From contig NC_134527.1 in NCBI RefSeq assembly GCF_027942865.1, positions 8,100,976-8,164,975 on the forward strand: a stretch of DNA of 64,000 nt. The letters run 5' to 3'. The notes under the pieces are model-generated. The model did not search any database. It was not told where the DNA came from and saw nothing but the letters and a program-made list of their open reading frames with translations. Positions 1 through 53,410 of this stretch are shown piece after piece (positions within the stretch are counted from its first letter, which is position 1; the number at the start of each line of letters is the position of its first letter). The stretch is from Odontesthes bonariensis (lineage: Eukaryota; Chordata; Actinopteri; Atheriniformes; Atherinopsidae). Position numbers and translations under genes: made by a program.

Positions 1-14
1 ACAAACAAGTAAAA

Positions 15-3000
15 ATGCCAAATCAGAATACAGAACAGCCACCCTCAACTGAGGCCACGGAGTTGCATTCAAGTCTATTAAAAAGCACTACCTCAGATTT
101 TGGAAGGGATCAGTTGCAGAGATCTGTTCCAGGTTCTCTCAATCCAGGACAGAGTAGACATGCTTTAGTCAGTTCACCTGTGTCAATTCATGCTGAAAGT
201 TTAGACTTACGAACGTCAGCTACTTTTGAAAGATGTCTTCAGAGTCAGGCAACATACTCCTCATTTAGCACAGGTAATTTATCTCGGCTATACTACTCTG
301 GTTCACTGCCATCAACTAACCCAGTGGCTTATAGTACGGGGAATATTCATTCTCTTGTGCAGAACCACATCACTTCTCCAGTCATGACCCTGCAGCCACA
401 TATTGGTGGAAGCAGTCCTTCCTTATTTGGAGAAACAAATCAGAACTATTATCAAGGTCAGTTGTCTGCATATGGCTTAAGTCCCTCCTATGATGAAAAT
501 CAGTGGATTCGTGAAAGTGCCCTATGGCAGCAATTTCAGAATGATTCACAGAATTATAATTTCCAGGTAGAGGATCAAGGGTACAGACCAAGCTTTGAAG
601 GGACTTCATTACCAACCTCTAGTCCTCACTGTAGCTCCTTAAATATCAATCAGACAGTTAACAACACGTCTTGGCAAGGTGTTGCACATCACCAAGAACA
701 TATGGAATCATATCTGTTTGAGGGATATACAAATGAAGATCCATATCCCAAAAGAACATTATGTAACAGTTATGAAGATTTGGGGAAAATGACCTATTCC
801 CCTAATGAGGAAGCTGTGTTGAATTTAACTACTCAGCACGGTAATGCTAAAGTTGGAAAATGGCATTCATTTAACAATGCTAGTTCTTACAGTTTGAATG
901 GCATTTCATATCATGAAGGCTATATCGAGGAAACTGCACCAAGCTTATCTTACTCTGCTAACTGGCAACATGGAATGGATAATGCAAATCTACAAAATGT
1001 TCACAGTAATGGCCCGATCCATCATGGTCCATTTAATTTGAATAGACCAGTAGATTCAGCCTGTCTTCTCGGTCCCAATATTGACATGGAAGACTCCCAT
1101 TATCTTGAAGACACTGAATGGTATCAGCAGTGGCTTGCTCTTTTGGAGCAAGGAATGTGGTGGCCAGCAGAAGATGGTGACTGTGGCTACTTTGTTTACA
1201 CAGATCATGAGTACATTTATGCCTTGCTTACAGATGCAGCAGGTGAATATGTGTATGCATGTGCACCGGAAGCCGAATCATGGGGAAATGGACAGAAATT
1301 AGAGAGTTTCCCCAGTGCTTGGCTGCACAATGAAATGGTTTCAGTCTGTGGATTTAAAATTCCACTTTACAATGAAGATGAGCTTCTTTGGCTTCCTGGT
1401 CAAGATCACAGTGATCCTCAGCTTCTTAATGCTCCCCTGGATTTGTCTGCTGCCTACATAAAAGGGAACCAACTCATGAATTTAAATCTTGAGCAATTTT
1501 CTCAAATGTTTGAAAATTCATTTCTGACACAAAGGCAGCAAGGTGCGGATTTCACATCTTACAGACTAAACAAAGTTAGGATGGACCCAAGACAGCCTCA
1601 TTATGTCTATGGGGATCCCTGTCAAGACATTATTGACCTTTCATGCCATAATAGAGATCGCATCGGCCCTAACTGGAACAACCAGGAAGTTAAGACATTT
1701 CTTGCTCAAAAGGTTTCTGTTTCCTTGAACTCTACTCCTGTAGAAAACTTAAATCAACAGCTACTTTATAATTGTTATATACCCAGCAAACAGCGGCGTT
1801 CATCTACTGCCGTGACCGTTAAACATGTAAATGATGTTTCAGAGGAAGAATGGAGGAAAAGAGTGTATCCAGTTGAAGAGTTGCCTAATCGTCAAGTGAA
1901 AAAGATTTCTTCCCTAATGTCTTCTTTTGTGGGAAAACCATCTCAGGTGGAATTGGACAAAACCAGCACAGCCCATCGTAATCAAGCCTCTGAAAAAAAT
2001 TCCAAGAACATTCTGTCATCAGGTTTCCAAAGTATCAAGTCTAAGATCATCAAAGAAGAATCTTCTGCTGTTGTGACCCAACCAGAGAGTGTTAAACAAC
2101 AAATGCAGAAGCCGGCCGTCACACAAGGAAGAATTTTGCCCACAATACCAACAACCACTCAAGCGACCCAGCCCTCCACATTCTCACAAACTACACAGAA
2201 GCCAAGACTTTCACGTCAGACTACCATGGCACAACAAGCAGTCCCACCAACGAAGCCCAGTGTCTCTGTGCCTTTAGGATCAAAAGAAAATCTTAACAAA
2301 TCTGCTCAACCCACACTTTCAGCTAATAAACCAGTGGACACGCCAGTGGATAAAACATCTGAACAACCACAGGCAGGCTTCATGAACTTTCTTAAGTCTG
2401 CAGTAGGAAAGGAAGAAGCCAAACCAGATTCCCAGACTAATTCTCAGACACCTCCCAATGAGCAAAGCAAAGCGGGTAGTACTACTTCCTTACCAGGCAG
2501 TGCCACTGCAAACAAGGAGACTACAGGAGTGTCAAATCTGTTCGGATCAATTAGCAGCTTATTTAATAATGATCCCTCTCCACCACAAAAACAGCAAATG
2601 AAACCTAGTGTTACAGAGAGTTCACTTTCATCAACCATTCAATCAAAGGGTATTGAGAGTGGCACGTCCCGGCTAGCGCAGAGCCAAAGTCTAAGCAAAA
2701 GCATATCACAAGTCACTTCTTCCACAAGTCCTGCAGTAAGCAAGTCAGAAACAATGCCACCTACAGGGCAGACAAAGCAGGAAGCAGGTAATAAATCATC
2801 CGGCGGACTGTTTGGATTTTCAATTGGCGAAATGCTGGCAGGACCAACACCAGCTGCACAGGCCAGCCCTGTGTCGCAAACATCTGCTTCAGCTACAGCT
2901 CCACAGGAAGAATCACTTGGTAAAAGTATATTGTCAATGTTTACAGCGCCGAGTCCTCAACAGGCTCCACCTAAAACCGGACCCATGCCTCAAACTAATC

Positions 3001-6000
3001 CACCAAGTGTGCCTCCACAACCTGCTCAACAGGAAACACTTGGTAAAAATTTATTATCAATGTTTGCAGGATCAAGTCCTCCTCAGCCTCCTAATCAAGC
3101 AAAGCCTTCTGCTGAGGCACCACAGCAGGGAACCATTCCCCCAAAAGACCCTCCATCTACAGGATTTCTTTCTATGTTTGGTGGTGCCAGCACACAACAG
3201 TCTCAAGCTCAGACAGGATCTTTTCTAGGAGGAATTTTGTCTGGGTCATCAAGTTCATCTGAAAGCCCAAGGACGGGACTGTTCTCCTTGTTTAGTGACC
3301 CCAGCCCCCCACAAACACAGCCACCAACTACTCCATCTCAACAAAGAGGAGCTCAATCTCAAACTCAGCAACGAAGGGAACCTCAGACACAATCTAAGCC
3401 ACAAGAACAACCTCAGTCACAAGGACAATCTGCTACCTCTGTTCTTGGCGGTATATTAGGCGGGTTATCTGCATCTAGTGAAAGTCCAAGAAAAAATTTG
3501 TTTTCTATGTTTAGTGGCCCCAGTACTTCTCAAACACAAGAAGCCAGTGGAAGTACAAACACGTCCTCTGCACCAAGGACAAATGCACCCAAAGTATCTG
3601 CGAAAAGTACCGTCTCTGTTGTTAACGATGTTGTGTCGCCACCACAGGAATCTCCCAATTCCTCATCTACCACCAAAGAACCACAACAACAAAGTTCTTC
3701 CCAAGTGTCATCTGATTCCAGCAGCCATATCCCAGAGCCAGCAAATGCTAGTGAAATGTCAAATGATCTCTCAGGTAGCAAAGCTAATTGTGACTCAAGT
3801 GAACTGCATGCAAGTCCATCCACTGGTGTTACTGTCACTATGACAAGTTCTAGTAAAGAAGATGCCATAATTAAAGATACAGATATTGCACCTGATGCAC
3901 CCAAATCAGAGTCCATTACTCTCCATACGGAAACGAGCACAACAAGTGCACCCCAGGATCCTGCCCCTCCTAAAGAACCACCAGCTTCTGGTCTGTTATC
4001 TATGATCAGTGGATCGGGCTCACATCCTCCATCTGCATCCAGTTTAATTTCAGATGGCCCAGGAAAAGGTTTGCTTTCTTTATTTTCTTCACCTGGCACT
4101 GAGCCTGCCACTAGCCATACTGAGCCGTCAGCAATAGGTGCTACACCTCCACCATCAGGCCCTAAGGATCAACCAGCCAGAGGTTTATTCTCTGTGTTTG
4201 GAGGTTCTGTTCCACAGCCCTCTTCACAGCCTGGAGGTTCTCTGTTAGGGTCAGTGTTTGGAGGTTCTTCACCCCAAACACCAGCCTCAGGAGGATCTTT
4301 ACTAGGTGGTTTATTTGGAGGGTCTGCACCGCAAACTGGTCCTCAAGTTGGTACCACTAAGACAGGGGGGTCTGTTCCTCAAACTGCAGGACCTCAGACA
4401 GGCTCTTCACTACTTGGTGGACTATTTGGTGGATCTGCTCCCCAGGCTGCTGGATCTCAAGCCGGGGCATCAATTTTGGGTGGGATTTTTGGAGGCTCAG
4501 CAGCCTCATCAACAATGCCTCAGACAAGTGGGCCAACTGCAACCCAAACCTCAACATCCCAAACTAATAGCTCAGTATTGGGAGGAATTTTGGGGGGCTT
4601 ATCTTCTCAAACTGCTTCTGCACAAACTGGTACATCTTTTCTGGGTGGCATTTTACCAGGAGCTGTTCCAAGTGAGACGCCTAGCAAAGGTTTGCTTTCA
4701 ATGTTTGGAGGACCTGCTCAAGCTGCACCCACTGCAACACCAACACCAACACATAACGATGGCAAGAAAGCTCTGCCTACAGCTTTGACTGACAGTACAT
4801 CAGGTGTAACTGCTCTGCCAAAGTCAACTGATGACAGCAAAACTGCTCCAACTAGTGCTGTAACAGATGTAACGGATACTGTCACCACAAATCTACAGCA
4901 ACCTGAGGGTACAGTTCAGGGTCCTGAAGCAAGCTTGTCCAAACCTGATGGCAGCCTCACTGAAGAAGTGAGTGGCCAATGTACTGAAAAGTCAAATGCT
5001 TCAGCTGAAGCTAGTCAGTCTAAAGAATCTGAAATCAGTGCACCAGCACCACCAGAGCTTGTAAGCGGTCAGATTCAAGATATAACACCTCCTAAAGTAG
5101 AAGAGGAAGCACCAGCCGCTAAAGATTCAGCAGCAGATGCAGTTACAGGCTTTATGTCTTCCCTGTTTAAACCAGCAGCTGCTCCCACTGAAGGTCCTCC
5201 ACAACAGCCGAATAACTCGTTCTTTGGACTTGGAGGGACAGCAACCCAAGCTCCTACTGGTCAGACTGGGGCATCACTATTAGGGGGGATTTTTGGAGGG
5301 TCTAACACCCAGTCAGCGTCTCCTCAGATGGGGGGATCATTACTGGGAGGTTTATTTAAAGGGTCTGCTCCGCAGTCTGGGCCTCAAACCACAGCATCTT
5401 CTACTGGAGGGTCAATATTAGGTGGGGTGTTTGGTGGAGGATCCACTGCCAAGTCTGCAGCTCCCCAGAGTGGTGGATCATTACTGGGTGGGATGTTCGG
5501 AGGAGCTGGAGGAACATCCCAGCCAGGTGGTTCTCTTCTTGGCGGAATGTTCGGAGGAACCGCTGGTCAAGCTGCAGGATCACAGGCTGGAGCATCAGTG
5601 CTTGGAGGCATAGGCGGATCTCTTTTTGGGGGAATGGGACAACCACCCAAGTCCTCTGAATCAGCACCACCAGAGTCAAAGGCGGCGCCTGTTGCTGCTC
5701 AAAAGCCACAGATTAAGAATGAAAATGTACCTCCAAAAGTTCCTCCATCTGGCTGTGAGAGTAGTACAAATAAGATGGAAAACGAACTAGTAAAATCTGA
5801 CAGGGGTAGCGCAATGGTATCTGAGACGGTTTGTCCAAAACCTTTTGCAGCCACAAGTGAGCCAATAAAAACTACAAATGACACCACTGATCACGTAGAT
5901 AACACTGAGAAAGTAAAGACAGCTGTTGATGAAGAGGTTATACATGAGAAGCCCATGGTTATTATTGGAGAGCCTGAGAGTAAAGAAAATGACAAATCAG

Positions 6001-6617
6001 TTCCACCTAATGACCAAGAGGCAAATACTAATTTTCCCAACAGTGCGGAACAACCTCAAGCAAAGTCTATGTTTGGTTTCATGTCGACACAGAGTGATGC
6101 AGGGAAATCTCTTGGATCCATTTTTTCGCCTGCAATGCCATCAGTTGCATCATCATTGCCCACAACACAAGGAGGTGGTGGTCTATTATCAGGATTAAAA
6201 TCCCTCTCTGGGGGCCTGTTTCAAGAGGAAAACTCAGGAAAACAAGAACCAACCACTTCACTATTTGGATCAAAAATAAGTTTTCCCTGGCAGGCAGAGC
6301 CACCCAAGTCACAAGCTGTTCCAGTTGTATCTCAACCCCAATCTAACAACAAATCAACAAGTGGTCAGACACATACTACACAAAAGGTTGCAACATCTGA
6401 TGCTCAAAAAACTGAACTGGTAGGTTCCACAGATGATCTAGAAACCCCCCAGATTTGCATCTCTGCTCCTGAAGTAGATCCTTCAGCATCCCTGACCCCA
6501 AAGGAGAAGGAAAGGCTTGTAGAAACAAACCCCTCTGCAGGTTCTGCTTCTGGAGTGCAGCTGGACAACCAGCCCAAGAGGGATCTATTGAATGAAAAAA
6601 GGCTAGTAGAAGCATAA
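15..6617 (+). CDS. unc13b: Giant exon ORF, probable long N-terminal linker of unc13b (Munc13-2), 5' partial
   Basis: A single uninterrupted frame of 2,200 codons. The 14 bases before the first ATG are also open in this frame, so the exon may begin left of the window. Residues ~1-350 are Ser/Asn/Tyr-rich. Residues ~365-465 form an aromatic segment beginning WYQQWLALLEQGMWW and containing GYFVYTDHEYIYAL, the part most likely to fold. Residues ~600-2200 are Pro/Gln/Ser-rich and carry about 30 short FG-type repeats such as GGSLLGGLFGG and LFSMFSGPS. I assign it to unc13b because it lies immediately upstream of two unmistakable unc13b linker exons on the same strand; I do not recognise it independently. 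The TAA at 6615 overlaps an AATAAA, so it could be a terminal exon. The only donor-like GT near the 3' end in phase with the next exon is weak (after 6307). It could also be a separate gene or an isoform-specific last exon. Confidence 0.65.
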   Translation: MPNQNTEQPPSTEATELHSSLLKSTTSDFGRDQLQRSVPGSLNPGQSRHALVSSPVSIHAESLDLRTSATFERCLQSQATYSSFSTGNLSRLYYSGSLPSTNPVAYSTGNIHSLVQNHITSPVMTLQPHIGGSSPSLFGETNQNYYQGQLSAYGLSPSYDENQWIRESALWQQFQNDSQNYNFQVEDQGYRPSFEGTSLPTSSPHCSSLNINQTVNNTSWQGVAHHQEHMESYLFEGYTNEDPYPKRTLCNSYEDLGKMTYSPNEEAVLNLTTQHGNAKVGKWHSFNNASSYSLNGISYHEGYIEETAPSLSYSANWQHGMDNANLQNVHSNGPIHHGPFNLNRPVDSACLLGPNIDMEDSHYLEDTEWYQQWLALLEQGMWWPAEDGDCGYFVYTDHEYIYALLTDAAGEYVYACAPEAESWGNGQKLESFPSAWLHNEMVSVCGFKIPLYNEDELLWLPGQDHSDPQLLNAPLDLSAAYIKGNQLMNLNLEQFSQMFENSFLTQRQQGADFTSYRLNKVRMDPRQPHYVYGDPCQDIIDLSCHNRDRIGPNWNNQEVKTFLAQKVSVSLNSTPVENLNQQLLYNCYIPSKQRRSSTAVTVKHVNDVSEEEWRKRVYPVEELPNRQVKKISSLMSSFVGKPSQVELDKTSTAHRNQASEKNSKNILSSGFQSIKSKIIKEESSAVVTQPESVKQQMQKPAVTQGRILPTIPTTTQATQPSTFSQTTQKPRLSRQTTMAQQAVPPTKPSVSVPLGSKENLNKSAQPTLSANKPVDTPVDKTSEQPQAGFMNFLKSAVGKEEAKPDSQTNSQTPPNEQSKAGSTTSLPGSATANKETTGVSNLFGSISSLFNNDPSPPQKQQMKPSVTESSLSSTIQSKGIESGTSRLAQSQSLSKSISQVTSSTSPAVSKSETMPPTGQTKQEAGNKSSGGLFGFSIGEMLAGPTPAAQASPVSQTSASATAPQEESLGKSILSMFTAPSPQQAPPKTGPMPQTNPPSVPPQPAQQETLGKNLLSMFAGSSPPQPPNQAKPSAEAPQQGTIPPKDPPSTGFLSMFGGASTQQSQAQTGSFLGGILSGSSSSSESPRTGLFSLFSDPSPPQTQPPTTPSQQRGAQSQTQQRREPQTQSKPQEQPQSQGQSATSVLGGILGGLSASSESPRKNLFSMFSGPSTSQTQEASGSTNTSSAPRTNAPKVSAKSTVSVVNDVVSPPQESPNSSSTTKEPQQQSSSQVSSDSSSHIPEPANASEMSNDLSGSKANCDSSELHASPSTGVTVTMTSSSKEDAIIKDTDIAPDAPKSESITLHTETSTTSAPQDPAPPKEPPASGLLSMISGSGSHPPSASSLISDGPGKGLLSLFSSPGTEPATSHTEPSAIGATPPPSGPKDQPARGLFSVFGGSVPQPSSQPGGSLLGSVFGGSSPQTPASGGSLLGGLFGGSAPQTGPQVGTTKTGGSVPQTAGPQTGSSLLGGLFGGSAPQAAGSQAGASILGGIFGGSAASSTMPQTSGPTATQTSTSQTNSSVLGGILGGLSSQTASAQTGTSFLGGILPGAVPSETPSKGLLSMFGGPAQAAPTATPTPTHNDGKKALPTALTDSTSGVTALPKSTDDSKTAPTSAVTDVTDTVTTNLQQPEGTVQGPEASLSKPDGSLTEEVSGQCTEKSNASAEASQSKESEISAPAPPELVSGQIQDITPPKVEEEAPAAKDSAADAVTGFMSSLFKPAAAPTEGPPQQPNNSFFGLGGTATQAPTGQTGASLLGGIFGGSNTQSASPQMGGSLLGGLFKGSAPQSGPQTTASSTGGSILGGVFGGGSTAKSAAPQSGGSLLGGMFGGAGGTSQPGGSLLGGMFGGTAGQAAGSQAGASVLGGIGGSLFGGMGQPPKSSESAPPESKAAPVAAQKPQIKNENVPPKVPPSGCESSTNKMENELVKSDRGSAMVSETVCPKPFAATSEPIKTTNDTTDHVDNTEKVKTAVDEEVIHEKPMVIIGEPESKENDKSVPPNDQEANTNFPNSAEQPQAKSMFGFMSTQSDAGKSLGSIFSPAMPSVASSLPTTQGGGGLLSGLKSLSGGLFQEENSGKQEPTTSLFGSKISFPWQAEPPKSQAVPVVSQPQSNNKSTSGQTHTTQKVATSDAQKTELVGSTDDLETPQICISAPEVDPSASLTPKEKERLVETNPSAGSASGVQLDNQPKRDLLNEKRLVEA
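2380..6300 (+). repeat. Degenerate FG/GLFG-like coding repeat array
   Basis: Within the giant ORF about 30 copies of a short Gly-hydrophobic motif are spaced roughly 15-60 residues apart in Pro/Gln/Ser/Thr linkers. Two flavours alternate: a [GK]-x-[LF]-[LF]-S-[ML]-F type (LLSMFAGSSPPQ, GFLSMFGG, LFSLFSDPSPP, LFSMFSGPS) and a GGS-[LI]-LGG-[LIMV]-FGG type (GGSLLGGLFGGSAPQ, GASILGGIFGGS, GGSLLGGMFGG). The second type is densest at about 4,220-4,660 and 5,260-5,640. Copies differ at the DNA level, so this is old or selected repetition rather than a fresh minisatellite. Confidence 0.85.
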
Positions 6618-7880
6618 TAAATGGTATCCCCCTTTACCATTTATGCTCCATTGACAGTTTGAAAAATGTATATCATGTCCAGCTCTGCAGTCCATTTTCT
6701 CTAGTTCAGCACGTCATTTTTGTTGTGTGTATTGTCTCTCCAGTGTCATATCTCACCTCAGAACAGAACTCCGAAAACAAAATTTACATATTGACATTAG
6801 CATGACGAATTCACGGCTACAGTAATTATGTTCGTCCTCTACAAAAATAATTCTTAAACAATTTTACATTCTTAAACATTTAAACTTAAACTGCTGACAT
6901 GTTACTTTTAGTTGTACTCCTTCTCTTAACTTTTTAATGTCTAACTGACAAAAATATGACCATTTTGTGGAGATGGATTCAAAGCAAGCATCGTTATGTA
7001 CAAGGACTATAAATAATGCAAATTTTGTTTGATCGTGGAGTTCTGATTTGATTTGCTCGTTATTTAACAGTATATAACGAGTAGTAATCCCATTTTGTAA
7101 CATTTAACCCAAAGTTCCTCATCCAGAGATATAAATGTGGTTATTCTGGATTCTACCCATACAAATTATATTAATTCCAAAAAGTTCAAACACACCAATC
7201 ATCTCTGCATATTTTATGGTCCACATCCATCTGTGTTTCAACCCCATGTCTCTGTTGGTTTACCAATTGTTGTGCACCGCACACATGTACATGATATGTG
7301 GAAAGTTTAAAAGGGACATGCTGAGAGTAGAATATGCAGATATAATTGTTTTTAAATTGTGCTTCTAGGGGTAGGTTAGCACTTTAAAGGGATTTCCTAT
7401 TTCACACCACTGAGTTTAACGTGCTCTTATTTGAGACATTTCAATTTAGAATTGCAGATCTAATGTTAGAAAGTCTATGCAGTGTATATTGCACTTGCAT
7501 TAATGCAGTTTTTCCCATTTTTGTTATTTTCAACATGCAGCAGCCTCCTTGCAAGGTTGAGTATCAATCTTAGGGCATGTTGTGGTGTGTGTATACAGAA
7601 CCAGTTCATTTAAAGATTGTTGACAAAACTAGACACTTACATAGTTTATGCAAAAACCCCACCCTCCTTAGCTGGAGGGTGGGGTTTATTGCACTCTAAT
7701 TGAAGTGTTGTTAAAAAAATAATCATTTAAACTATTCATTCATTAAAGAAGTTACTTTACCTTGATTCAACAATCCCCACCTGTTTGGCTTTTTGTTGTG
7801 GGAGAACATAAAGAACATAAATATGTCAAAATACATTTTCACCCATTCTGATTTTAAATTTTTCCTCTGTTGTCATGTAG
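6618..7880 (+). other. AT-rich non-coding stretch between giant ORF and linker exon, with a strong hairpin
   Basis: No credible coding exon is visible here. It is probably intron, or 3' UTR if the giant ORF is terminal. A perfect 14-bp stem with a 6-nt loop lies at 7654-7687 (arm AAACCCCACCCTCC, loop TTAGCT, then the exact complement). The acceptor TTGTCATGTAG of the next exon closes the stretch. A small bridging exon could be hidden here, but I could not identify one. Confidence 0.6.
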
Positions 7881-8174
7881 TCCAGTGCAAAGTAGCCGCT
7901 TTGGGTCATCGGGGAACTTGAGCCAGACCAGCTCCCAGCTTAGCGAGACTGGCCATGAGAGCACTGGAGGATCAGAGCTGGAGGAGTCCTTCCACTCCTT
8001 CCATAGCACTGGCTTACACCCATCCACTAACGGACAGCCATGCACAAATGGGCATCTTTCCGCCAATGGACATTCTACTGTCAGTGAGCAGGAGATGCAC
8101 AGGATGTCCCCTGAAGTAGAACATGGTTTGAAAAATGACCCTCCAGCAGAGAAAGGATCATTGAAACTTCAAAG
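7881..8174 (+). CDS. unc13b: unc13b linker exon, ubiquitous (ubMunc13-2) isoform
   Basis: The exon follows acceptor ...TCATGTAG and ends at donor AAAG|GTACCA. It reads PVQSSRFGSSGNLSQTSSQLS near its start, the Ser-rich linker motif that sits between the N-terminal C2A and the calmodulin site in Munc13-1 and ubMunc13-2. It enters with one base completing a codon and leaves two bases over, which joins exactly to the exon at 8278. The C2A exons are not in the window and must lie to the left. The rest of the exon is hydrophilic (ELEESFHSFHSTGLHPS), consistent with a disordered linker. Confidence 0.85.
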
Positions 8175-8277: not shown

Positions 8278-8368
8278 ATTCCACGATGCAGGGCCGCCAT
8301 TACCTTTTTCCCCATCCAGAATTCGTTGGTTGAAGGCCATCAATAAAGTCAGAGTTCAGCTCCGGGAG
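8278..8368 (+). CDS. unc13b: unc13b calmodulin-binding helix exon (ubMunc13-2 type)
   Basis: A 91-nt exon between ...GTAACCCAG and GAG|GTAAGC. It encodes FHDAGPPLPFSPS and then RIRWLKAINKVRVQLRE. The second segment matches the amphipathic Trp-anchored calmodulin helix of Munc13-1 and ubMunc13-2, which in those proteins links residual Ca2+ to vesicle priming. It ends in phase 0. It can therefore join directly to the common exon at 16020, giving QLRE-VRDVEPSV, and skip the 7.6 kb that holds the brain-isoform exon. Confidence 0.9.
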
Positions 8369-11300: not shown

Positions 11301-12860
11301 CTGTTTTCTGTTTTACTCCACCTGTATTCTTCCAAGATTACAGCTTGCCATTGTGTAAAGTAGTTTCACGGTATATGAGCAGAATCAAAGAAAAGCAGCT
11401 GCAGCTAGCTATAGAAGCGAGGACCACTTTGTGTGTTAATTTATCCATGCGTGCTATATGAGGCTGAGGGTGCAGATATCCTACTTTGTCCAGTTTGATT
11501 TAAGGTCTTGTTTTAGCTGTAGAGATCCTTTCTGATACAATTATTAGTTCCATTTGACTAATGTCCCAGGCCATCGAATGGAAATTAGAGGTCAACTATG
11601 ACTCGTCCTATAGGAAGAAAACACTTATGGTACAGTAAAAAATTGAGCACTGTAAAACTGTTAAGGTTATTGCACGACAGCATCTGCACGTTAACAATCC
11701 CATATTGATTTGTTGGATGCCACTGGCTTTATTAGTGCGAGCGTCAACAAGCAGGTTAATGTCCGTATAAATGCGGTGAATTAGGTGATGCATCGCTTCT
11801 GTATGTCAATGTATCCTTAGGCTACAAATGTGCTAGTGTGTTAATTTTCTAGATACATATATAAATATATATATAGACATATATTACTTCAGCCAACTAG
11901 CACCACCACAAGCAAAGATGACCATATTTAATCATTTTGGTAACTTTTTGTACCCAAATAAATGGTGAATATATATTGTGAAAAAAAAGTGGTTATAGTC
12001 AGAGATGTATGGTATCACCATTCATTTATGCCTTATTTTTGGGGGTATTTGGTCATGCCTGTGGTGTATGTGCTGTTGTCTTTTGGTCAGAGCTACCAGG
12101 CGTTGCAGCTGGTTGGGGTGTGAAAGAATGACATGGCCTCAGATATGTCATCTAATTACTGTGCTGTCTCTCCAAGGCACGGTAATTACAGAGATCTGAG
12201 CAGCTGCATGGTGTTGATTCTACAAGTTGCTACTGTGACTGAGAAGTTAGTTAAAGCAGCACTGTCAATCCAACTAAAAGTGGTGGGAGAAAAAAAAAAG
12301 TATATTCTTTTTTTAATTCCAAGGTTGTATGTATAAAGTCATAATAAAAATCAAAAAATGATTCTTCACAGGTCTGAAAATGAAGTAAAAACAACCTTGG
12401 ATGAAAGGAAACCAATGACATAACACTGTATCATTCTTTATTTCATAGTTGCAATGCTCAGAGAGACTACACAATGTAGTTGGAATGTTTTTTTTTATTA
12501 TTTGTCCTCCATTATTCTCATTAAAATAAAAAGTATCAATTTCATAAATGAAATTTCGCATTGAACTAAAAAGTGAATATTTCCACTAATGGCTCATTTT
12601 TTAAAATGCCATATCTTCCCTTACCTTCTTTAGTTTATTATGCTTGGCTATTGTATCATGGCAGAGGTGCAGCAGAAGTTCTCAGTAGTTCTAAACACTT
12701 GTCTTTTCTCTTCTTTCTCAACAAAATGACTTATGACATGTGCTGCAGGTATTTACCTCCATGTAGTTTCAGACGCTGGCCTATGCTTATGCCTCTCCAA
12801 GGAGGAGTCACGAAGCCTGTGGTTTATCTATGAGCTGATAGCGAGTGCTGCTTCTCAGGG
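8369..12860 (+). other. Large unc13b intron upstream of the alternative brain exon
   Basis: About 4.5 kb without a recognisable exon. It contains poly-T/poly-A tracts (about 9030-9058 and 9134-9154) and an AT-rich simple stretch at about 11,850-11,880. Several blocks have balanced composition and octamer or TAAT-type motifs, for example ATTTGCATTAAT near 8870, in otherwise AT-rich sequence. These look like conserved non-coding DNA rather than genes. The promoter for the brain-type exon should lie at the right end, but no TATA box stands out. Confidence 0.5.
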
Positions 12861-31798
<18,938 letters not shown>

Positions 31799-35656: not shown

Positions 35657-38620
35657 AGTCAAAGACAAATTTATTTGTATAGCACATTTCATGTACAAAA
35701 CAATTCAAAGTGCTTTATATAAAATAAAAGCATTGCAGCGGGGAGTGGAAGAAGCATTTAAAATACATAAAAGAATATAAAGAGAAACAAATATTATAAT
35801 TAAAATTAATTAAAAACAAGCAACAGTAAAAGATACCGTTCACCTGAGGTGGCATCGCTATCGCATATTATGTACAATTTCACACCTGTCATGAAACAAG
35901 CAACAGTCTAGATAAGTTCAAAGATACCGTGTAGATTTCATGCATATACACATGAAAAAAAGAAATATTTTTAACCTGGATTTAAAAATGTCTACATTTG
36001 GTGAAAGGTTAATCTCCACTGGCAGTTTGTTCCACTTGTTTGCAGCATAACAGCTAAATGCTGCTTCTCCATGTTTAGTCTGGACTCTGGACTGGACCAG
36101 CTGACCTGAGTCCTTGGATCTAAGAGCTCTGCTGGGTTCTGAACATATCACAGATGTATTTTGGGCCTAAACTGTTCCGGTATCTGTAAACCATCAGCAG
36201 GCTTTTAAAATCTATTCTGTGACTGACTGGAAGCCAGTGTAAAGATTTTAGCCTCTTCTCTTTGCTACCAAACAGAATGATCTCAGTTTTGTCTTCATTT
36301 AATTGTAGAAAATTTTCTCTCATCCAGGTGTTTACTTCCTCCAGACACTGACACAGTACATCTGCTGGGCTGCAGTCGTCTGGTGACAGAGACACATAAA
36401 ATTGTGTACCGTCTACATAACTGTGATAATTTATGTTAAATATCTGGTATATCTGACCCAAAGGGAGCATATACAAGTTAAAGAAAAGAGGTCCAAGAAT
36501 TGACCCCTGGGGGACTCCACAAGTCATGGCCAGTCGCTCAGATTCATAGCTGCCAATTTTAACAAAATAACCCCGGCCTTCTAAGTAGGACCTGAACCAG
36601 TTAAGGACCGCTCCAGAAAGTCCAACCCAGTTTTCCAGCCTGTGCAACAGGATTCTGTGATCTACAGTATCAAACGCAGCGCTGAGGTCCAACAGAACCA
36701 GGACTGAAACATAACCAGAATCAGTATTCAACCTAATGTCGTTTAACACTTTGACCAGAGCTGTTTCAGTGCTGTGTTGACGTTGGAATTCTGATTGAAA
36801 GTTATCAAGACTTCCACTTTCATTCAGAAAGTCGTTGAGCTGGTTAAATACAACTTTCTCAATAATCTTGGATATAAAAGAGAGGTTAGAGACAGGTCTG
36901 TAGTTGTTCATCATAGAGGCATCTAGAGTTCTCTTCTTTGGGAGTGGCTTAATGGCAGCTGTCTTTAGTTACTTGGGAAAAATGCCTGATGCCTGTGAGC
37001 TGTTTGTAGGAGATCGCTTTCTACTGAGGTAAAAACTGTTTTTAAAAAGTCGGATGGTATTATGTCCGGAGTGCAAGTTGTTGAATTCAGATGCCGAACT
37101 GTTTCCTCTAGGATTTTTAAATCAACAATATTAAATTGTGACATAACGTCAGAGTTATTTCTAGGTTTTAGATACAGATTAGTTTTCTTGCTTGTCTGTG
37201 TGGCGTGAATGTTTTTTCTAATTGTTTTGATTTTTTTTGGCTAAAAAAAGTTGGCAAATTTGTTGCATTTCTCAGTGGAGAGATCTGGGTTTGACTGTTT
37301 AGGAGAATTTGTGAGTTTTTCAACCATAGCAAACAGAGTTCGAGAATTGTTGACATTCTTATTAATCATTTCAGATAAATGCAGCTGTCTGGCCTTGCAC
37401 AGCTCATTGTTAACTGACTACGCAGGCTTTGTGTGTACAGCTCATAGTGAATCTGAAGCTTTGTTTTCCTCCACTTATTTTCTCCACTGTGTTTTCTGTT
37501 TGCTCAAAGTGCTCTTGATTTGCACAGAAGAAAATGCTTTGGCATTACCATCCGTCATATTATCTATGTGAATGTTAAAATCTCCGGTCAAGATAAAATG
37601 GTTAAAATCAGTCGAAATAACAGACAATAATTCAGAAAATTCATCTATAAAACGTGCACAGTATCCTGGAGATCTGTAAATGATTATGAACAGGATTTTA
37701 GGAACACCCTTAAAAATAAAACTAAGATATTCAAAAGAAGTGAAATCACCAAATGAGATCTCTTTACACTGGAATGTATCTTCAAATAAGGCAGCTTATT
37801 ACTGAATAAGCTAAAATTATTGGGGGTGCTGTTTCATTAAGAACAGTAGCACTGCTCTCTGTTAACCATGTTTCTGTCAGAATAAGAAAATCTAAATTGT
37901 GTGAAATTATGAAGTCATTAACTAACAGTTACTTATTGGACAGAGATCTAATATTAAGCAAGGCTAGCTTTGTGGAGTTTACACTGGTCTCTGTTGTATT
38001 CTGAGTTGGACGTGGTATCGTTAACAGATTAGATAGATTCACCCAGCAAGTTTGCTGTTTTCGATTCCTTCTTTTACGAACTAATACAGGAGTCCTACTG
38101 GGTCCCAGCTTGTTCTCAGAATCTTCAAATTATCTTTGTTTTGAACTGTGCTATCTTTGTTTTAAACTCTGGATGTTCTGCTGCTCCTTAAACATCCTGC
38201 ACATCTCCTTCTGTCCTGCTCTGCCAGGACAGATGATGTAAGAGGAGCAGGAGGGGGTGCCTTGGGGTACCAAGTTTCTTGGTAGATGGTGGTCGTTGGA
38301 GTTCTGGCTGGGATAGAGACATCCTTTGGAGACCTTGGGTGATGTGGAGTAGAGGGTCTGGTGAAGGGGGAGGGCTGGTTGTTGTTTGCCTCGCTCCTGT
38401 GTCCTTCACTGTAATTTGCACAGTCATGTTTGGATTTGCCGTCCCAGCAGCATGACGTAAGCGTGCACCGAGTAATCTGCATCCAGTTCGATTCGGACGC
38501 ACGCCATCAGGTCTGAAACGCTCCTTACAGTTCCAAAAGATATTAAAGTTATCAATGAACTTAATCCCATCGGCGATGCGTGCATTTGAAGTGCCTAAAT
38601 CGTTTCAATATTCAACCACA
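35657..38620 (-). mobile_element. Decayed L2-like (CR1/L2 clade) LINE retrotransposon
   Basis: Read on the minus strand from right to left, the order is as follows. A C-terminal ORF1 remnant (FIDNFNIFWNCKERFRPDGV near 38,500-38,560) resembles the SGNH-esterase tail found in fish L2 ORF1. Apurinic-type endonuclease remnants come next (DFLILTETWLTE near 37,860-37,890, then YRSPG, then GDFNIHIDN near 37,570-37,600), with frame breaks between them. Reverse transcriptase follows (36,120-36,914). The 3' end carries an ...AATAAATTTGTC tail near 35,660-35,680. The element is therefore a long but inactive copy. Exact ends are uncertain because I could not define a target-site duplication. Confidence 0.8.
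36120..36914 (-). pseudogene. LINE reverse transcriptase fragment with damaged catalytic motif
   Basis: A 264-codon open frame with RT landmarks: NNYRPVSNLSFISKIIEKVV, then HSTETALVKVLNDI, VLLDLSAAFDTVDHRIL (motif A), GVPQGSILGPLFFNLYM (motif B) and a motif C that reads YVDGTQ instead of the Y-x-D-D expected. Loss of the second Asp should abolish polymerisation. After ...ILFGSKEKR the frame runs straight into LKSLHWLPVSHRIDF, so roughly 90-100 residues usually found between these blocks are deleted without a frameshift. A further short frame (35,918-36,151) continues the C-terminus. Confidence 0.88.
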
Positions 38621-43100: not shown

Positions 43101-46100
43101 ATGACTTCTACATTTGAATGTAGAACTTATTCGCTGTTAACTAACTAACATTTCCTGTGTTTCTCAGGTGAAGTGCGATGTGAGCCTCCCAACAACTACC
43201 TCGACAAGTTCAAAGGCACTCTGACGGTGAAGGGACAACTCCACAGCCTGGACAACGACAAAGTGCTGCTCAGAGGATGCACTCTCAGGAACACGGAGTG
43301 GTGCTTCGGACTGGTCATTTTTGGAGGTAAACTGTCTTGCTGCCAATTGAAGAACTGTGCATAAAGGTCTCTTGCTAGTCCTATACTTCACATACTTTGG
43401 GTACAGATGCCTACTGTAGCCATCAGCCCACCCCGAAGACCTTTATGAGTGATGGGTTCACTTTAATAACAGGGCATGACAGTGGTTAAATACAACTCTA
43501 AATCATAGTCATGACATGTAAAGGGGATCGTGCCAACTAATCTAATATTTTCTGTACAATGGTCACATTCAGTGAGCATTTTATTACCAATCTTTGGACT
43601 TGTTGCCTCACCCCGTGTCTGCATCTGTGTAAACGGGAAGTGCATGCAAATAGTTACTTTTTCACTCGGTCCTTTGAACCTGTCAAAAAAGTTGGAAAAC
43701 GATTTGAATAATGCACAAGCTGTGTGGATAATGTTTATCAGCAGGCCTGTCTGCAGCAGACTTTCTCTTTGTTATTAGTCTACAAGTACAGAAAACTCTC
43801 CACAGAATTGTCTGTGCCTCTGAAAAGGTCATTGAATGTTTTCAGGTCCTGACACCAAACTGATGCAGAACAGTGGAAAGACGACGTTTAAACGGACCAG
43901 CATTGACCACCTGATGAATGTCCTGGTGTTGTGTGTGAGTTTATGAACACACTAATGCAAAAAATGAATCTGCCTTATTCATTTGACTTAAATTTCTCAC
44001 AATAAACATATCACTTAGACATTTATTAAGAAATCATCCAAACGCTGTGAACACTAATCATTATTTGTTATGTGTTGTTTTAAATAAACGTACCTAAAGC
44101 TGGGACTTTGGTAAGTTGCGATGACTTGCCTTTTCTGTAGTTAAAGGAATTATGATTAAAAAAAAAGTCCCAATTACTTAAAAGTGAGTCAAGCAAAAAG
44201 GATCTTTTCTAGATTCAATTTGCAGATTTCTCTCACCATGCATTTCACTCGCAAATATGTTCATTGTTTAGGTTTCTGTTTTTGAAGTGATCAGTCTTCT
44301 CCATTTTTTTCGACATTCAAATAATAAAATTGTGTGTCTTGTCATTTCTACCAGATCTTTGGTTTTCTGGCGACTATGTGCTCCATTCTGGCCGTCGGCA
44401 ATGCAATCTGGGAGACCAGGGAGGGCTCGGTGTTCACACCGTTTCTTCCCCGTGAACGCGGTGTCAACAGCGCTCTCACATCCTTCCTCTCCTTCTGGTC
44501 CTACGTCATAGTCCTCAACACAGTGGTGCCCATTTCTCTCTATGTCAGGTACATTTCAGCACAGGAAAGATCTTGAAGTCAGAGAGCAGCAACAGTTGTT
44601 GTGACAATCTGAGCACTCTGTGTGTTTGTGCTTGAATGTCAGTGTGGAGATCATCCGACTCGGGAACAGCTTCTTCATAGACTGGGACAGGAAGATGTAT
44701 TACCCTAAGAATGACACCCCTGCCCAGGCGAGGACCACCACACTCAACGAGGAGCTCGGCCAAATTAAATACATCTTCAGTGATAAGACAGGCACCCTGA
44801 CGCAGAACATCATGGCTTTCAACAAGTGCACCATCAATGGAAAGAGCTACGGTGAGCAGCTTTGTTTCATTATGAAAAGTACAGAGTTCAAATGGGCTCA
44901 CACTTTAAGATTAAGATCAGATTTATTGGTCATGCATACATGCATACACACAAAATTTGTCCTCAGCTTTTAACCCATCCAGGTTGGCACCTGTTGACAC
45001 ACACATGCACATGCACAGGGTCACACATAGAGATAGATGCCAACCTGGAGCAGTGGGCAGCCATTCAGCTGTCAGTTCCACCAATCTTTCATCGGTGGAA
45101 TGACTCATTCTGAAGTGTATTTCTCTTTTTTTCAGGGGAGCTGTATGACTTTACTGGACAAAGAATGGAAATAACAGAGGTCAGAGTGCATATTACTGTA
45201 GTTTTTTTTCTAAATATCTTCTAAAGTACTCCAAGTCATTTTGTCTTTTCTTTTATTTAAAAATATGTGTTTGTAGAAAACAGAGAGACTGGACTTCTCC
45301 TGGAATCAGCTGGCAGATCCAAAGTTCATCTTTCACGATCCCAGTCTGTTGGAGACGGTGAGAGGAGGAAACCCAGAGGCTCAGGCCTTCTTCCGCTTGC
45401 TGGCTTTGTGCCACACCGTCATGCCTGAGGAAAAGAAAGAGGGTGAGGGTCCGCCAATGATGATCTTTATCACCACATGGCATGGCTTTAGGCAGGAGAA
45501 TTTCATCCCAGCTCAGCGTTAGGACTCCATAGTTTTTACATTATTGTGTTAAATCCTAATGCATATTGAAATGAGTAAATATGTGACTAATGGTGTTTTC
45601 TGAAAATGAGTGCATTCACGATGTGGAAGATCTGAAAACATCTCAACTTTTGTAATATCTTGTGTATTTTGTGTGGTTCTCCCCTCTGTTGTCCTCGTTT
45701 TCACCGGGCAGGGCAGCTCAACTATCAGGCTCAGTCTCCTGATGAGGGTGCACTGGTGACCGCAGCCAGGAACTTTGGTTTTGTGTTCCGCTCTCGCACA
45801 CCAGAGACCATCACAGTCATGGAGATGGGCAGAAAAGTTGTGTATGACCTTGTGGCCGTTCTGGACTTCAACAATGTGCGGAAGAGGATGTCAGTAATAG
45901 GTAACAGAGAGTAGTGGCACAATATTACATTTTCAATATTCTCCTTTGATTTTCCTCTGAATCATCATAACTTCTTCTCAGAGGTTATACTTGATCCTTT
46001 TCTTAAGATGTGCTCTTTTTCTTGTTTTTGATGCTGCTTTTAATCATGAATGTCATATGGTTAACTGTAAAAGAAACTTGTTCGTGCATTCATCATGTCC

Positions 46101-49100
46101 ACCGAAGCTAAGCAGCTATCTTTTACATTCAGAAGATGACCAGATATATGCTGAGGTTTCCTCATCTTGTTCATGAAAATATCAAACCTCGTCACTTTCG
46201 CTGTGATTCTCAGTGCGCAGCCCTGAGGGCAAGTTGACTCTATACTGCAAAGGAGCAGACACCATCATCTATGAAAGATTACACCCCTCGTGTAACAAAC
46301 TGATGGAAGTTACCACCGGGCACCTCAACGTGAGAGAAGCACTTGAAATTTTTTTTTGTATGCCACTATTTTGTATAAATCTGTGTTTTTAAATGCTTAT
46401 AATGATCAAACAACAATAGGAGTATGCAGGCGACGGCCTCCGTACGCTGGTTCTGGCCTACAAGGACTTGAAAGAGGACTACCTGGAGGAGTGGAGACAG
46501 CGCCACCATGAGGCCAGCACCGCCATGGAGGAGCGAGAGGAGAGACTCGATCAACTTTATGAAGAGATCGAGAAAGACCTCATTGTTAGTTCGCTTGCTT
46601 AAATACATACCTAAACAGGCCGCAGTTAGTTGAAGAAAATTTTAAAATTATGAAGTCTATCCTGCAAAACGACTTTAAAAATGCCAGGATTGTTTTATTG
46701 TCAAGCGCGTTAAAGGTGAGGGTTGGTTTTGCATTCTGCCACTTTAAATCCTCCTGTCATCTCTGCTTTCCAGCTGTTGGGAGCGACAGCTGTGGAGGAC
46801 AAGTTGCAGGATGGAGTGCCACATACCATCGAGCAACTGGCTAAAGCTGATATTAAAATCTGGGTGTTGACTGGAGATAAACAAGGTTGCTTTTACTCTG
46901 TGTTGACATTTAAAACAAACATTTCAAGGTTGATGACTCATTTTGTGACTCATCTAATGTATACATTCTGTATAATCTTTAAATGACCTCAGAGTGAAGC
47001 TTTATGGAGTTGACTGTTTATTCATACCACAGTTATTGTCATTGTAATGGTCTTGAAACAGAGACGGCAGAAAACATCGGCTACTCCTGCAACATGCTGA
47101 GAGAAGAAATGAAGGAGGTTTTCATCGTGGCCGCCAATACAGCCGAAGGCGTCAGAGAGGAGCTCCAGTAAGTCAGTGAGACTCTCACTATGTGATGATC
47201 AGTGTCTCTTATGGTATAGAGATTTACATGGTGATGTAATGCTTCATTTCTTTTATATTTGTCACAGGCTCTCTTAGCTCTATTTAATAATGCAAGCCTC
47301 ACTCATTCCTTTTTTTTCACTGGTTGGGGATGAAAATGAAATCACCATGTTTAAGATTGCCCGTCAGAGAAGATAAACCAAAATCATGTTGAAGATCATC
47401 CATGACATGTATATGATACTAGTCATGCAAGCTAATTTAAGTTTAATACTTAGAAACCAAGTTAACAAGTGAAATTGAAGATAAAGACAAAGTCAGGATT
47501 AATAACTTTCATAAAAAAAAGTCAGAATGTTGTGCAGATGGTGGATCTGAACTTATGGTTTTAGCACCTTTTTTTTTAATTTAGAGTACCATTTTCAGCA
47601 TCTCCTGTCCTTGTGTTTTTAGGAAAGCGAGGAGGAAAATGTGTCCAGAAGCAGCAGAGGAGCCCTCTGTAATCAAGGCTCGTGCGGGTCTGTTTTGGCT
47701 GGAGAAGACAGAGACTGTGCAAGATGAGGAAGTGGAAGGAGACTATGCTCTGATAATAAACGGACACAGCCTGGTAAGATGGCTTTCTCAGAAGCAAAAC
47801 TTCTTCTCGTAGCTGCCGAACTAATGCAAATTTTTGTACTTTTTGCCCTAGAATAAGTTTTTTCACATCACCTGTCTTTTATAGATAATCATGAGTAAAA
47901 CAATGATAGATAAATGAAAATCTTATGATCCTGAACAGTTCAGCTCTGTAATCTGCCCCTTGACCTTCAGGCGTATGCACTGGAGAAGGACTTGGAGCTG
48001 GAGCTGCTGAGGACGGCGTGCATGTGTCAGACAGTGATCTGCTGCAGGGTCACCCCTCTACAGAAAGCCCAGGTGGTGCAGCTGGTCAAGAAATACAAGC
48101 AGGCTGTCACTCTCGCCATTGGGGACGGAGCCAATGATGTCAGCATGATCAAAGGTTAGCTCATTGACGTCAAGCACCAGAAGCACCAGACAAACCTGTG
48201 ATTTAAGTACAGCCAAAATGCAGGAATGTAAGTATGTTGTTTTGCTGTCTTCCGTTTGTCTGTCAGCTGCTCATATCGGAGTCGGGATCAGTGGTCAGGA
48301 GGGGATGCAGGCAGTTCTTTCCAGCGACTTCTCCTTTGCACAGTTCCGTTACCTCCAGCGCCTCCTGCTGGTGCACGGCCGCTGGTCCTACCTACGGATG
48401 TGCAAGTTCCTTCGATATTTCTTTTTCAAGAACTTCACCTTTGCCCTTGTGCACTTCTGGTATGCCTTCTTTTGCGGCTTCTCAGCCCAGGTGAATGACC
48501 CTTTTAGGAATCATTTTACACACTTTTAGGAGTCACAAGTTCAGTCAGAGTTAGGGCTACGTAACTGAAAGAATGATGCATGTTCTCACAGTTAAATCAG
48601 AGTATATACTGTGTGGTTCAGTTATGATGTTTCACTTGTTTTGTAAAAATATGACTTAACACGTCATGTTTTTATTTTTGACAACCTCTCTAACAAGAAC
48701 TAAATTCCAACATTTCAGGACTGTTAGTAAATGGTTTATATCATTGCAAATTGTTCTGGTATAAGCATTAGCTTGTTTGATTTAATGTTTGTATGTTCTG
48801 CTGTTGCTGTCAACAGACTGTGTATGACGAGGGTTTCATCACCTTGTATAATACAGTATACACAGCGCTCCCTGTCCTCGGCATCAGCCTCTTCGACCAG
48901 GTATGCACTAAGAGGAAAATGAGCCAGAAAGGCAATTACATGTTTCAAAGTTTTGATGTTGCCATCCCCTCCTCTTTCCTTTTCTCAAGGCTTTTTTCTT
49001 TCTGCCTGTTTTTACAGGATGTAAATGACCACTGGAGCTTCCAGCATCCTAAGCTCTACTTTCCAGGCCAGATGAACATGTATTTTAGTAAAAAGGCCTT

Positions 49101-52689: not shown

Positions 52690-53304
52690 CTATGCTCTGT
52701 TGTGCGTCTCTGGTCTGCTGTCTTCTGCCTGTGAACACACACTCTGCTGTGTTTCCTCCTCCGAGCTCCTCTTGATAGTCAGCTCTCTCTCAGCCTCTTC
52801 CACACATGGAGCTTTGGCTGCATGGATGTGGAGCTTTCCGTCTGGAGACAGGTAGCAGGTGACGGCTTCAGGGTTCAGCCCTTCGGGCAGATCAAACTCC
52901 TGTCTGAACTCCTGGAGTCTGTAAGAGTAGGAGCCTTTCCCGTCCTCCTGCTTCTTCTCTGTCTTCCCACTGACTCTCAGCTTCCTGCCCACCTGCCTGA
53001 CAGACAGCTCCTCTGGGGAAAAGCCTTGAGTGTCCAGGGTCAGGCCAAAGTTTTCTCCCTCTTTGTCCAGCTGGTAGGAGACTGCTTGCAGGGCCACGCT
53101 GCTCTGGAAAGGCTCCGTCTCCTCTGGGATCTGTCGTTGAAATGTGTCCATCAGCTCCAGCCTGCTGCGCAGCTCCTGTAGGTTTCTCTGCAGGAGATCC
53201 TGCTGGTAGATCAGAGGTCTGACCTCTGGCCACAGACTGCGTACAGGCCAGTAGAAGTCCATGAATGGACCGAGGTCAGACTGGAGTCCACGAGAGCACA
53301 GCAT
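52690..53304 (-). CDS. hsp30: hsp30, small heat shock protein (alpha-crystallin family)
   Basis: Intronless frame of 204 residues on the minus strand. The start MLCSRGLQSDLGPFMDFYWP is chosen because it matches the fish HSP30 N-terminus and is the first ATG after the TATA box; the frame stays open 14 codons further but without an ATG. The alpha-crystallin domain spans ~76-165 (SYQLDKEGENFGLTL, FSPEELSVRQVGRKLRVSGK, YSYRLQEFRQEFDLPEG, DGKLHIHA). The GRKLRVSGK strand and a possible C-terminal I/L-x-I contact (LTI ~175-177) are present. Small HSPs form oligomers that hold unfolding proteins without ATP. Promoter elements at 53411-53454 indicate strong heat induction. It converges tail to tail with atp8b5 and is head to head with stbd1. 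Fish often carry hsp30 in tandem copies; only one intact copy is seen here. Confidence 0.93.
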   Translation of the reverse strand: MLCSRGLQSDLGPFMDFYWPVRSLWPEVRPLIYQQDLLQRNLQELRSRLELMDTFQRQIPEETEPFQSSVALQAVSYQLDKEGENFGLTLDTQGFSPEELSVRQVGRKLRVSGKTEKKQEDGKGSYSYRLQEFRQEFDLPEGLNPEAVTCYLSPDGKLHIHAAKAPCVEEAERELTIKRSSEEETQQSVCSQAEDSRPETHNRA

Positions 53305-53410
53305 CTTCAGGGTGTTTAGTGCTGAGTCCTCTTGTTGTGAGATCAAACTCTGTTCAGGTGTCTGTTCTCTTCTGTGTTGCTTTCTGTCTCAGCAGTGGGA
53401 CTGTCCCAGC

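Follow-up and report, generated by a model that had tools for sequence, protein, structure and literature searches.

The window analysed here, a stretch of 64,000 nucleotides of Odontesthes bonariensis DNA (C27:8100976-8164975, within an assembly of 945 Mb), opens inside a giant reading frame of a gene that, judged by its sequence, is a member of the Unc13/Munc13 family and appears to be of the unc13b (Munc13-2) type. The frame is uninterrupted on the + strand from window position 3 to 6617 (2,204 codons), and the same frame read into the upstream genome amounts to 3,372 codons in total. The exons of the gene in the window are as follows.

1..6601, + strand: window part of the giant exon, from the open reading frame (ORF), the splice phases, and the paralogous exon on C7
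6602..6603, + strand: putative GC donor (AAAAAG/GCTAGT), phase 2; AAAAG/GCTAGTA is identical in the C7 copy
7881..8174, + strand: next unc13b exon (TCCAGTGCAAAGTAGCCGC..., SPVQSSRFGSSGN), 294 bp, phase 2 to 2
8278..8368, + strand: following unc13b exon (RFHDAGPPLPFSPSRIRWLKAINKVRVQLRE), its end read by eye
12834..15176, + strand: second large exon, an open frame, from the ORF and conservation between the copies; presumably the N-terminal exon of the bMunc13-2 type
17479..17703, + strand: C1-domain exon, 96% identical to the C7 copy
20393..30378, + strand: several exons for the end of C2B and for MUN, from MUN profile matches and collinearity with C7
31042..31795, + strand: C-terminal C2 exons of the gene, from ORFs and conservation between the copies

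Matches to the MUN profile (PF06292) were found between C27:8123333 and 8131326, and the MUN exons are ordered on one strand. The C1, C2B, and C-terminal C2 exons and the upstream C2A exons were read from ORFs and from conservation between the two copies; their domain names, including the C1 and C-terminal C2 labels in the list, are those that we assume for them. The large exon resembling that of bMunc13-2 and a C2A start, present in both copies, fit unc13b as we understand that gene. For one MUN exon, the identity is 86% with C7, 80% with contig C1, and 75-76% with C19/C20. The second large exon contains a short run of 15 residues near its end and a strongly conserved segment (30 residues).

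The giant exon

The whole giant exon corresponds to C27:8097497-8107576 (window -3478 to 6601). It starts about 3.5 kb before the window, ends at 6601, and is 10,080 bp long, a length divisible by three, with 3,359 full codons. It sits between the C2A exons and the C1-C2B-MUN-C2C exons. The exon preceding it, which comes after the C2A exons, ends in phase 2; a canonical acceptor is present at the start of the giant frame, and the join between the two is in frame. The giant exon runs from phase 2 to phase 2, and the following exon (7881-8174) begins in phase 2 and is phase-compatible both with the giant exon and with the exon before it. As the phases at both ends match, the giant exon would be a symmetric cassette, the skipping or inclusion of which keeps the core in frame. 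An earlier note, made by a model from the DNA letters and a list of open reading frames, had placed a giant coding exon at the unc13b locus, and this is borne out by the single frame and by phases that would allow in-frame splicing. The note regarded the encoded piece as a tail of Munc13-2; its position makes it an insert between C2A and C1.

In the last 1.5 kb of both giant exons, AAAAG/GCTAGTA was the top-scoring phase-2 donor (by an ad hoc weight table), and the intron after the exon would be of the GC-AG type. If the frame were instead read to the stop just past 6601, the exon would be terminal, and the product would join C2A to the giant arm and lack the priming core. A stop codon does occur 13 bases beyond the donor in both copies, and the C27 stop overlaps an AATAAA. 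However, the donor sequence is identical in the two copies and stands in the sole phase that fits the next exon, and C7 has neither AATAAA nor ATTAAA in the next 1.2 kb; we consider a terminal exon quite unlikely.

A second copy of the gene on C7

When the two parts of the exon, that inside the window and that upstream of it, were used for protein searches of the same genome, matches were obtained on C27 and C7 only. The C7 match lies in a frame of 5,580 codons, upstream of the MUN exons of a second gene with the same layout. The C7 giant exon (C7:9322829-9339550; 16,722 bp, 5,573 codons) has a canonical acceptor and runs from phase 2 to phase 2. When the ORFs from 150 kb of C7 were searched against 94 kb around the window (plus-strand matches with E < 1e-4 only), the exons were collinear from C2A to C2C, with the giant exon at the same place. 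The small exon after the giant one was absent from the collinear list, and a separate search gave a weak C7 counterpart (23 residues, E 0.034). The two genes are probably copies derived from the teleost whole-genome duplication. The frame conservation that the earlier note proposed to look for in related fish is thus seen in part: the frame is kept in a second gene copy of the same genome, which is a paralogue and not another fish.

Synonymous differences between the C27 and C7 copies are near saturation. We compared four chosen blocks of the giant exon and seven chosen core exons by identity and by the proportions of nonsynonymous (pN) and synonymous (pS) differences. In the giant exon, the tryptophan-rich block described below was 54% identical (pN 0.28, pS 0.80), the first array units 50% (pN 0.33, pS 0.79), the N-terminal part 44% (pN 0.38, pS 0.81), and the C-terminal part 39% (pN 0.44, pS 0.67); the seven core exons were 69-96% identical (pN 0.02-0.18, pS 0.43-0.69). 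By these comparisons, the giant arm evolves much faster than the core, and as pN is well below pS in the homologous blocks, these blocks are under purifying selection. Retention of the giant exon in both gene copies suggests that it is probably useful. A spurious open frame or an assembly artefact is hardly credible, since the exon exists twice, at unlinked places, with homologous sequence, the same phases, and a pN far below pS.

Inside the C7 giant exon, a block of about 155 residues (HVETVTISSHHGSIDLTCRALSPEPQLQSTVYIHSPPVEDPGS...LDMSPKPSKA; C7:9330440-9331670, approximate) occurs in two to three tandem copies with little divergence, which suggests that the C7 arm is still growing by duplication. 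Near both genes, we also observed an element unrelated to unc13b (C27:8078301-8079969 and C7:9443747-9444180) that is about 90% identical and was matched in several frames; it is probably a recent mobile element.

FG dipeptides in the giant exon

The following features were found inside the window part of the giant exon.

1107..1577, + strand: conserved tryptophan-rich block (W-block; DTEWYQQWLALLEQGMWWPAEDGDCGYFVYTDHEYIYALLTD...), 54% identical to the C7 copy
1434..1448, + strand: PLDLS, a canonical-looking PxDLS motif (CtBP/RIBEYE B-domain type), aligned with PVDLT in C7
2130..2150, + strand: RILPTIP, the single R-x-L-P-x-x-P match, 1 vs 0.03 in shuffled sequences
2541..6269, + strand: stretch with 17 FG dipeptides, counted in the translated frame
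3048..6206, + strand: array 2 of hydrophobic units (GLLSMFGGS, SLLGGLFGGSAPQ type), 22 sites at threshold 7, median spacing 26 residues

The earlier note had reported about 30 FG-type motifs at 2380..6300, many of them literally GLFGG or LFGGS, and had likened the region to the cohesive repeats of GLFG/FG nucleoporins. The enrichment in FG and the context rich in P, Q, S, and T stand. In this interval of 1,307 residues, the most frequent residues are S, G, P, T, A, and Q, with few R, H, C, and W, and FG occurs 17 times vs 5.1 expected from the composition. Over the whole C27 exon, there are 22 FG vs 10.2 +/- 2.9 in 500 local shuffles (maximum 20) and 4 GLFG vs 0.15 (maximum 2); the C7 giant exon contains 21 FG vs 10.0 (maximum 23). 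The number of motifs was overstated, since FG totals 17 in the interval and 19 over the window part of the exon, and so was their literal form: the window part contains GLFG 3 times, LFGG 3 times, and GGLFGGS twice. FxFG does not occur in the whole C27 exon.

The giant exon resembles the GLFG nucleoporins of the Nup98 type in having short hydrophobic F/G units on linkers of low charge. According to one report, Nup98 FG domains contain an FG-type motif every 12 residues or so (about 8 per 100); cutting each spacer by a single residue brings the saturation concentration down about 3-5 fold, and lengthening raises it (PMC9918544). In contrast, the density in the interval is about 1.3 per 100 residues, and the densest 426 residues contain 9 FG in C27 and 8 in C7, which does not support the view of the earlier note that the spacing is the hallmark of cohesive repeats. 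A Pfam scan gave no family for the window ORF (E up to 1) or for three pieces of the C27 exon (E up to 10). Two pieces of the C7 giant exon were scanned (amino acids 1-1525 and the W-block region, without its array 2), and a match to DUF2076 in array 1 (E 0.00027, 21.5 bits, cut-off 38) was dismissed as compositional. In the whole genome, Nucleoporin_FG (PF13634) matched 15 places at E up to 10, none of them in either giant exon, a control that is partial in that the four best places (L037-L040) are not nucleoporins. As FG is too sparse (17 in 1,307 residues vs about 8 per 100) and no Pfam FG profile matches, membership in the FG/GLFG nucleoporins was rejected.

The four best places (C6:37199335-37199778 and C27:23093493-23094251) contain FG-bearing tandem repeats of 16 residues that score above the curated Nucleoporin_FG cut-off, and such repeats are a false-positive trap for six-frame searches with this profile. 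L039-L040 is a 426-codon frame of these repeats; at L037-L038, the repeats are in the frame that we read, which differs from the 391-codon frame that matched. A further place, L042, resembles a genuine FG exon (E 0.022, below the cut-off), and at L041, no FG-rich frame was found.

A repeated hydrophobic unit

The element that is repeated is a unit of 7-9 residues, G-hyd-hyd-[S/G]-x-hyd-hyd (hyd, hydrophobic residue; for example, GLLSGLLKF and SLLGGLFGGS), in which FG is a variable ending only. Its signal is wider and far stronger than that of FG alone: as a regular expression, it was found 10 times in C27 (0.09 in shuffled sequences) and 15 times in C7 (0.07); both this pattern and the FG patterns were picked after the sequence had been read. 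A 9-position profile trained on C7 alone found 33 sites in C27 at threshold 7 (60 shuffles: mean 2.65, maximum 7), and one trained on C27 alone found 32 sites in C7 (mean 1.38, maximum 4).

The sites form two arrays, between which the W-block lies. In C27, array 1 (GGLLSGLLKFSSTED type; 11 sites with Q/P/S-rich linkers) lies upstream of the window at about C27:8099190-8100960, with a median spacing of 56.5 residues, vs 47.5 in C7 (17 sites); array 2 of C7 has 14 sites with a median spacing of 34. All 33 C27 sites entered these statistics, and 1 of the 32 C7 sites (position 2021, between the arrays) was omitted. In C27, FG occurs twice in the 609 residues of array 1 and 14 times in the 1,074 residues of array 2, which holds 14 of the 22 FG of the exon.

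Identical units are written with different codons: all five GLLSGL in C27 are spelled differently, as are all four GFLSGLF in C7. This argues for selection on the protein and not for fresh duplication of DNA. Only two short tandem DNA arrays reached a score of 40 in window 1-6620. In all four arrays, the hydrophobic moment is largest at helical angles of 90-110 degrees (at 100 degrees, z is 3.9-6.5 vs within-unit shuffles).

Such periodicity would be expected if each unit formed a short amphipathic helix with a small polar face and the arrays thereby gripped highly curved synaptic vesicles with high avidity. The polar face is rich in S and G with few charges, and both copies retain segments of this kind, for example GVKNTMSSLFSSLTDK in C27 and GVKNAMSSLFSTITRT in C7. 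In sequence, the units are like the ALPS amphipathic motifs in their bulky hydrophobic residues, S/G/T polar face, and helical periodicity. However, the units are only about 9 residues long, glycine-rich, and shorter and more numerous than what we take to be typical of ALPS, and the periodicity is equally compatible with binding to a groove of a protein; a membrane-binding array is therefore one possible but rather improbable reading.

The other proposal, taken from the earlier note, is that the FG motifs associate with each other into a condensed phase at the active zone, as in FG nucleoporins. Besides the enrichment in FG and GLFG, the composition of C27 array 2 (68.7% Q/N/S/T/P/G/A and 12.8% charged residues) favors it, and the active-zone scaffolds RIM1 and liprin-alpha3 are reported to form condensates. 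However, FG is about six times sparser than in Nup98, FxFG and matches to the Pfam FG profile are lacking as described above, array 1 has the same kind of unit almost without FG, and C7 array 2 is 23.4% charged with a net charge of -69. We regard such a condensate as unlikely; its FG version is poorly supported, and condensation by another route would be possible.

The W-block and candidate partner motifs

No Pfam match was obtained for the W-block; a profile search of the PDB with it remained at chance level (best E 0.13), and a PDB sequence search with the window ORF gave nothing at E up to 1. A scan of GTDB for the W-block pattern gave 32 matches, none of them relatives. 

PLDLS in the W-block is the sole strict PxDLS of the C27 exon and is not significant by count (104 of 1000 shuffles reach it); the looser [LVIM]D[LMF][ST] occurs twice in C27, a number reached by 54 of 1000 shuffles. 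The C7 exon contains 16 [LVIM]D[LMF][ST] vs 0.98 in shuffles (at most 6 in 1000) and 7 [LVIM][DN][LMF][ST]xK vs 0.10. Six of the 16 lie within an internally repeated block (two kinds, three copies each). The R-x-L-P-x-x-P motif, which we take to be of the RIM-BP SH3 type, occurs once per copy, at different places in C27 and C7. The LC8-type motif [KR]xTQT was found in neither giant exon.

PxDLS is also a motif of nuclear CtBP partners. In the giant exons, the motifs may anchor the isoform to the synaptic ribbon, by docking on RIBEYE (the B-domain of which is CtBP2) as in Bassoon and Piccolo/Piccolino, whose PXDLS motifs bind the RIBEYE B-domain (PMC11242772). The alignment of PLDLS (C27) with PVDLT (C7) and the enrichment in C7 are consistent with such an anchor, and mouse photoreceptor ribbon synapses contain ubMunc13-2 only (PMC7660176, PMC11536687). 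Against it, the C27 count (one strict and two looser motifs) is not significant, the repeated block accounts for six of the C7 motifs, and short motifs arise by chance and have nuclear uses as well. Furthermore, in the same sources, removal of ubMunc13-2 in the mouse had little effect on photoreceptors (PMC7660176) or cut the b-wave of the electroretinogram (ERG) by about 30% (PMC11536687). As an account of the arm in general, we think that ribbon anchoring is unlikely; taken by copy, it is a fair hypothesis for C7 and a weak one for C27.

A candidate scaffold arm of Munc13-2

The reading that we favor, and hold to be probable with some reservation, is that an unc13b-type (Munc13-2) gene carries the giant exon as a phase-symmetric cassette, and that this exon encodes a multivalent, mostly disordered scaffold arm. 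Skipping of the exon would give the ordinary reading frame of ubMunc13-2. Inclusion would place about 3,360 additional residues after the C2A domain and ahead of the C1-C2B-MUN-C2C core, in the form of two arrays of short amphipathic hydrophobic units on P/Q/S/T/G linkers with the conserved W-block between them. Most likely, each unit would make one of many weak contacts, whether with other units, with a groove on an active-zone partner, or with the vesicle membrane, and the priming core would thereby be held in the presynaptic matrix, as by the giant flexible scaffolds Bassoon and Piccolo. Inclusion of the exon in the mRNA and the multivalent tethering are what we infer from the reading frame and the repeats, and the disorder of the arm is suggested by its composition.

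Several observations weigh against this scaffold-arm reading. The putative donor is GC with T at +3 and is weaker than a standard donor, and in C7, the match to the next exon is weak (23 residues, E 0.034), with a phase 2 that was read by eye. Beyond the conserved blocks, alignment of the two copies is poor (identity of about 18-27% in all local alignments but the first), and the number of units differs; in these alignments, matches shorter than 60 codons were skipped, the alignments overlap, and only the first is a clean homologous block. The unit was defined post hoc, and as the copies share ancestry, the test with held-out profiles is not fully independent. The motif is also near-palindromic, and reversed sequences score 25 and 27 sites at threshold 7; thus, the directional form of the unit is less certain than its presence. 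Finally, AlphaFold2 predictions for the W-block, with two sequences, were uninformative (mean pLDDT 29.6 for the 415-residue block and 44.3 for the 157-residue core).

Bassoon and Piccolo/Piccolino carry, to our knowledge, no MUN priming core, unlike Munc13-2. They are likewise giant active-zone scaffolds, with the PXDLS motifs mentioned above (PMC11242772). ubMunc13-2, the C2A-bearing form of UNC13B, is the closest known protein, with the same gene type, flanking exons, and core domains. The bMunc13-2/Munc13-3 type of N-terminal exon is likewise a large coding exon and lies in the same gene (window 12834-15176). Its sequence is different, with 2 loose GLLSxLF-type matches and 1 FG in one copy and none of either in the other. 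In the available parts of PMC7660176 and PMC11536687, Munc13-2 is described with two splice variants, ubMunc13-2 and bMunc13-2/brMunc13-2, and no giant insert is mentioned. Among the matches listed in a search of the open-licence literature (titles and starts of abstracts), we found no account of a giant UNC13B exon. Public databases presumably hold very long automatic UNC13B models; if so, the exon is annotated but undescribed. A Munc13-2 form with this previously undescribed repeat arm would be new relative to the known splice variants.

A more far-reaching proposal, which we offer as speculation and consider more doubtful than probable by a wide measure, is a third, giant form of Munc13-2, longer by about 3,360 residues (by about 5,570 in the second copy). 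In this form, the optional exon would fuse a multivalent scaffold like Bassoon or Piccolo, with an undescribed repeat and PxDLS-like docking sites for RIBEYE, to the priming core, and would keep the release machinery of sensory synapses at the ribbon or the vesicle cluster. Munc13 proteins set vesicle priming, and their recruitment to release sites is usually credited to RIM, ELKS, and Bassoon. If a form of Munc13-2 has a giant multivalent arm of its own, recruitment of the priming core could be partly built into Munc13-2 itself. A giant form in the fish retina would be directly testable, given the mouse data on ubMunc13-2, and vertebrate gene models or knockouts in which such an exon is disregarded would be incomplete.

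Other features in the window

The remainder of the window contains the following features.

29269-29686, + strand, and 36123-37795, - strand: fragments that we take to be LINE-type reverse transcriptase, the first within an unc13b intron
43150-50360, + strand: exon series from the ORF list with peptides presumably of a P4-ATPase
52693-53388, - strand: frame of 232 codons resembling what we assume to be a small heat-shock protein
59923-62031, + strand: frame of 703 codons ending in a CBM_20 starch-binding domain (Pfam E 3.4e-16), probably stbd1-like, a name that we presume

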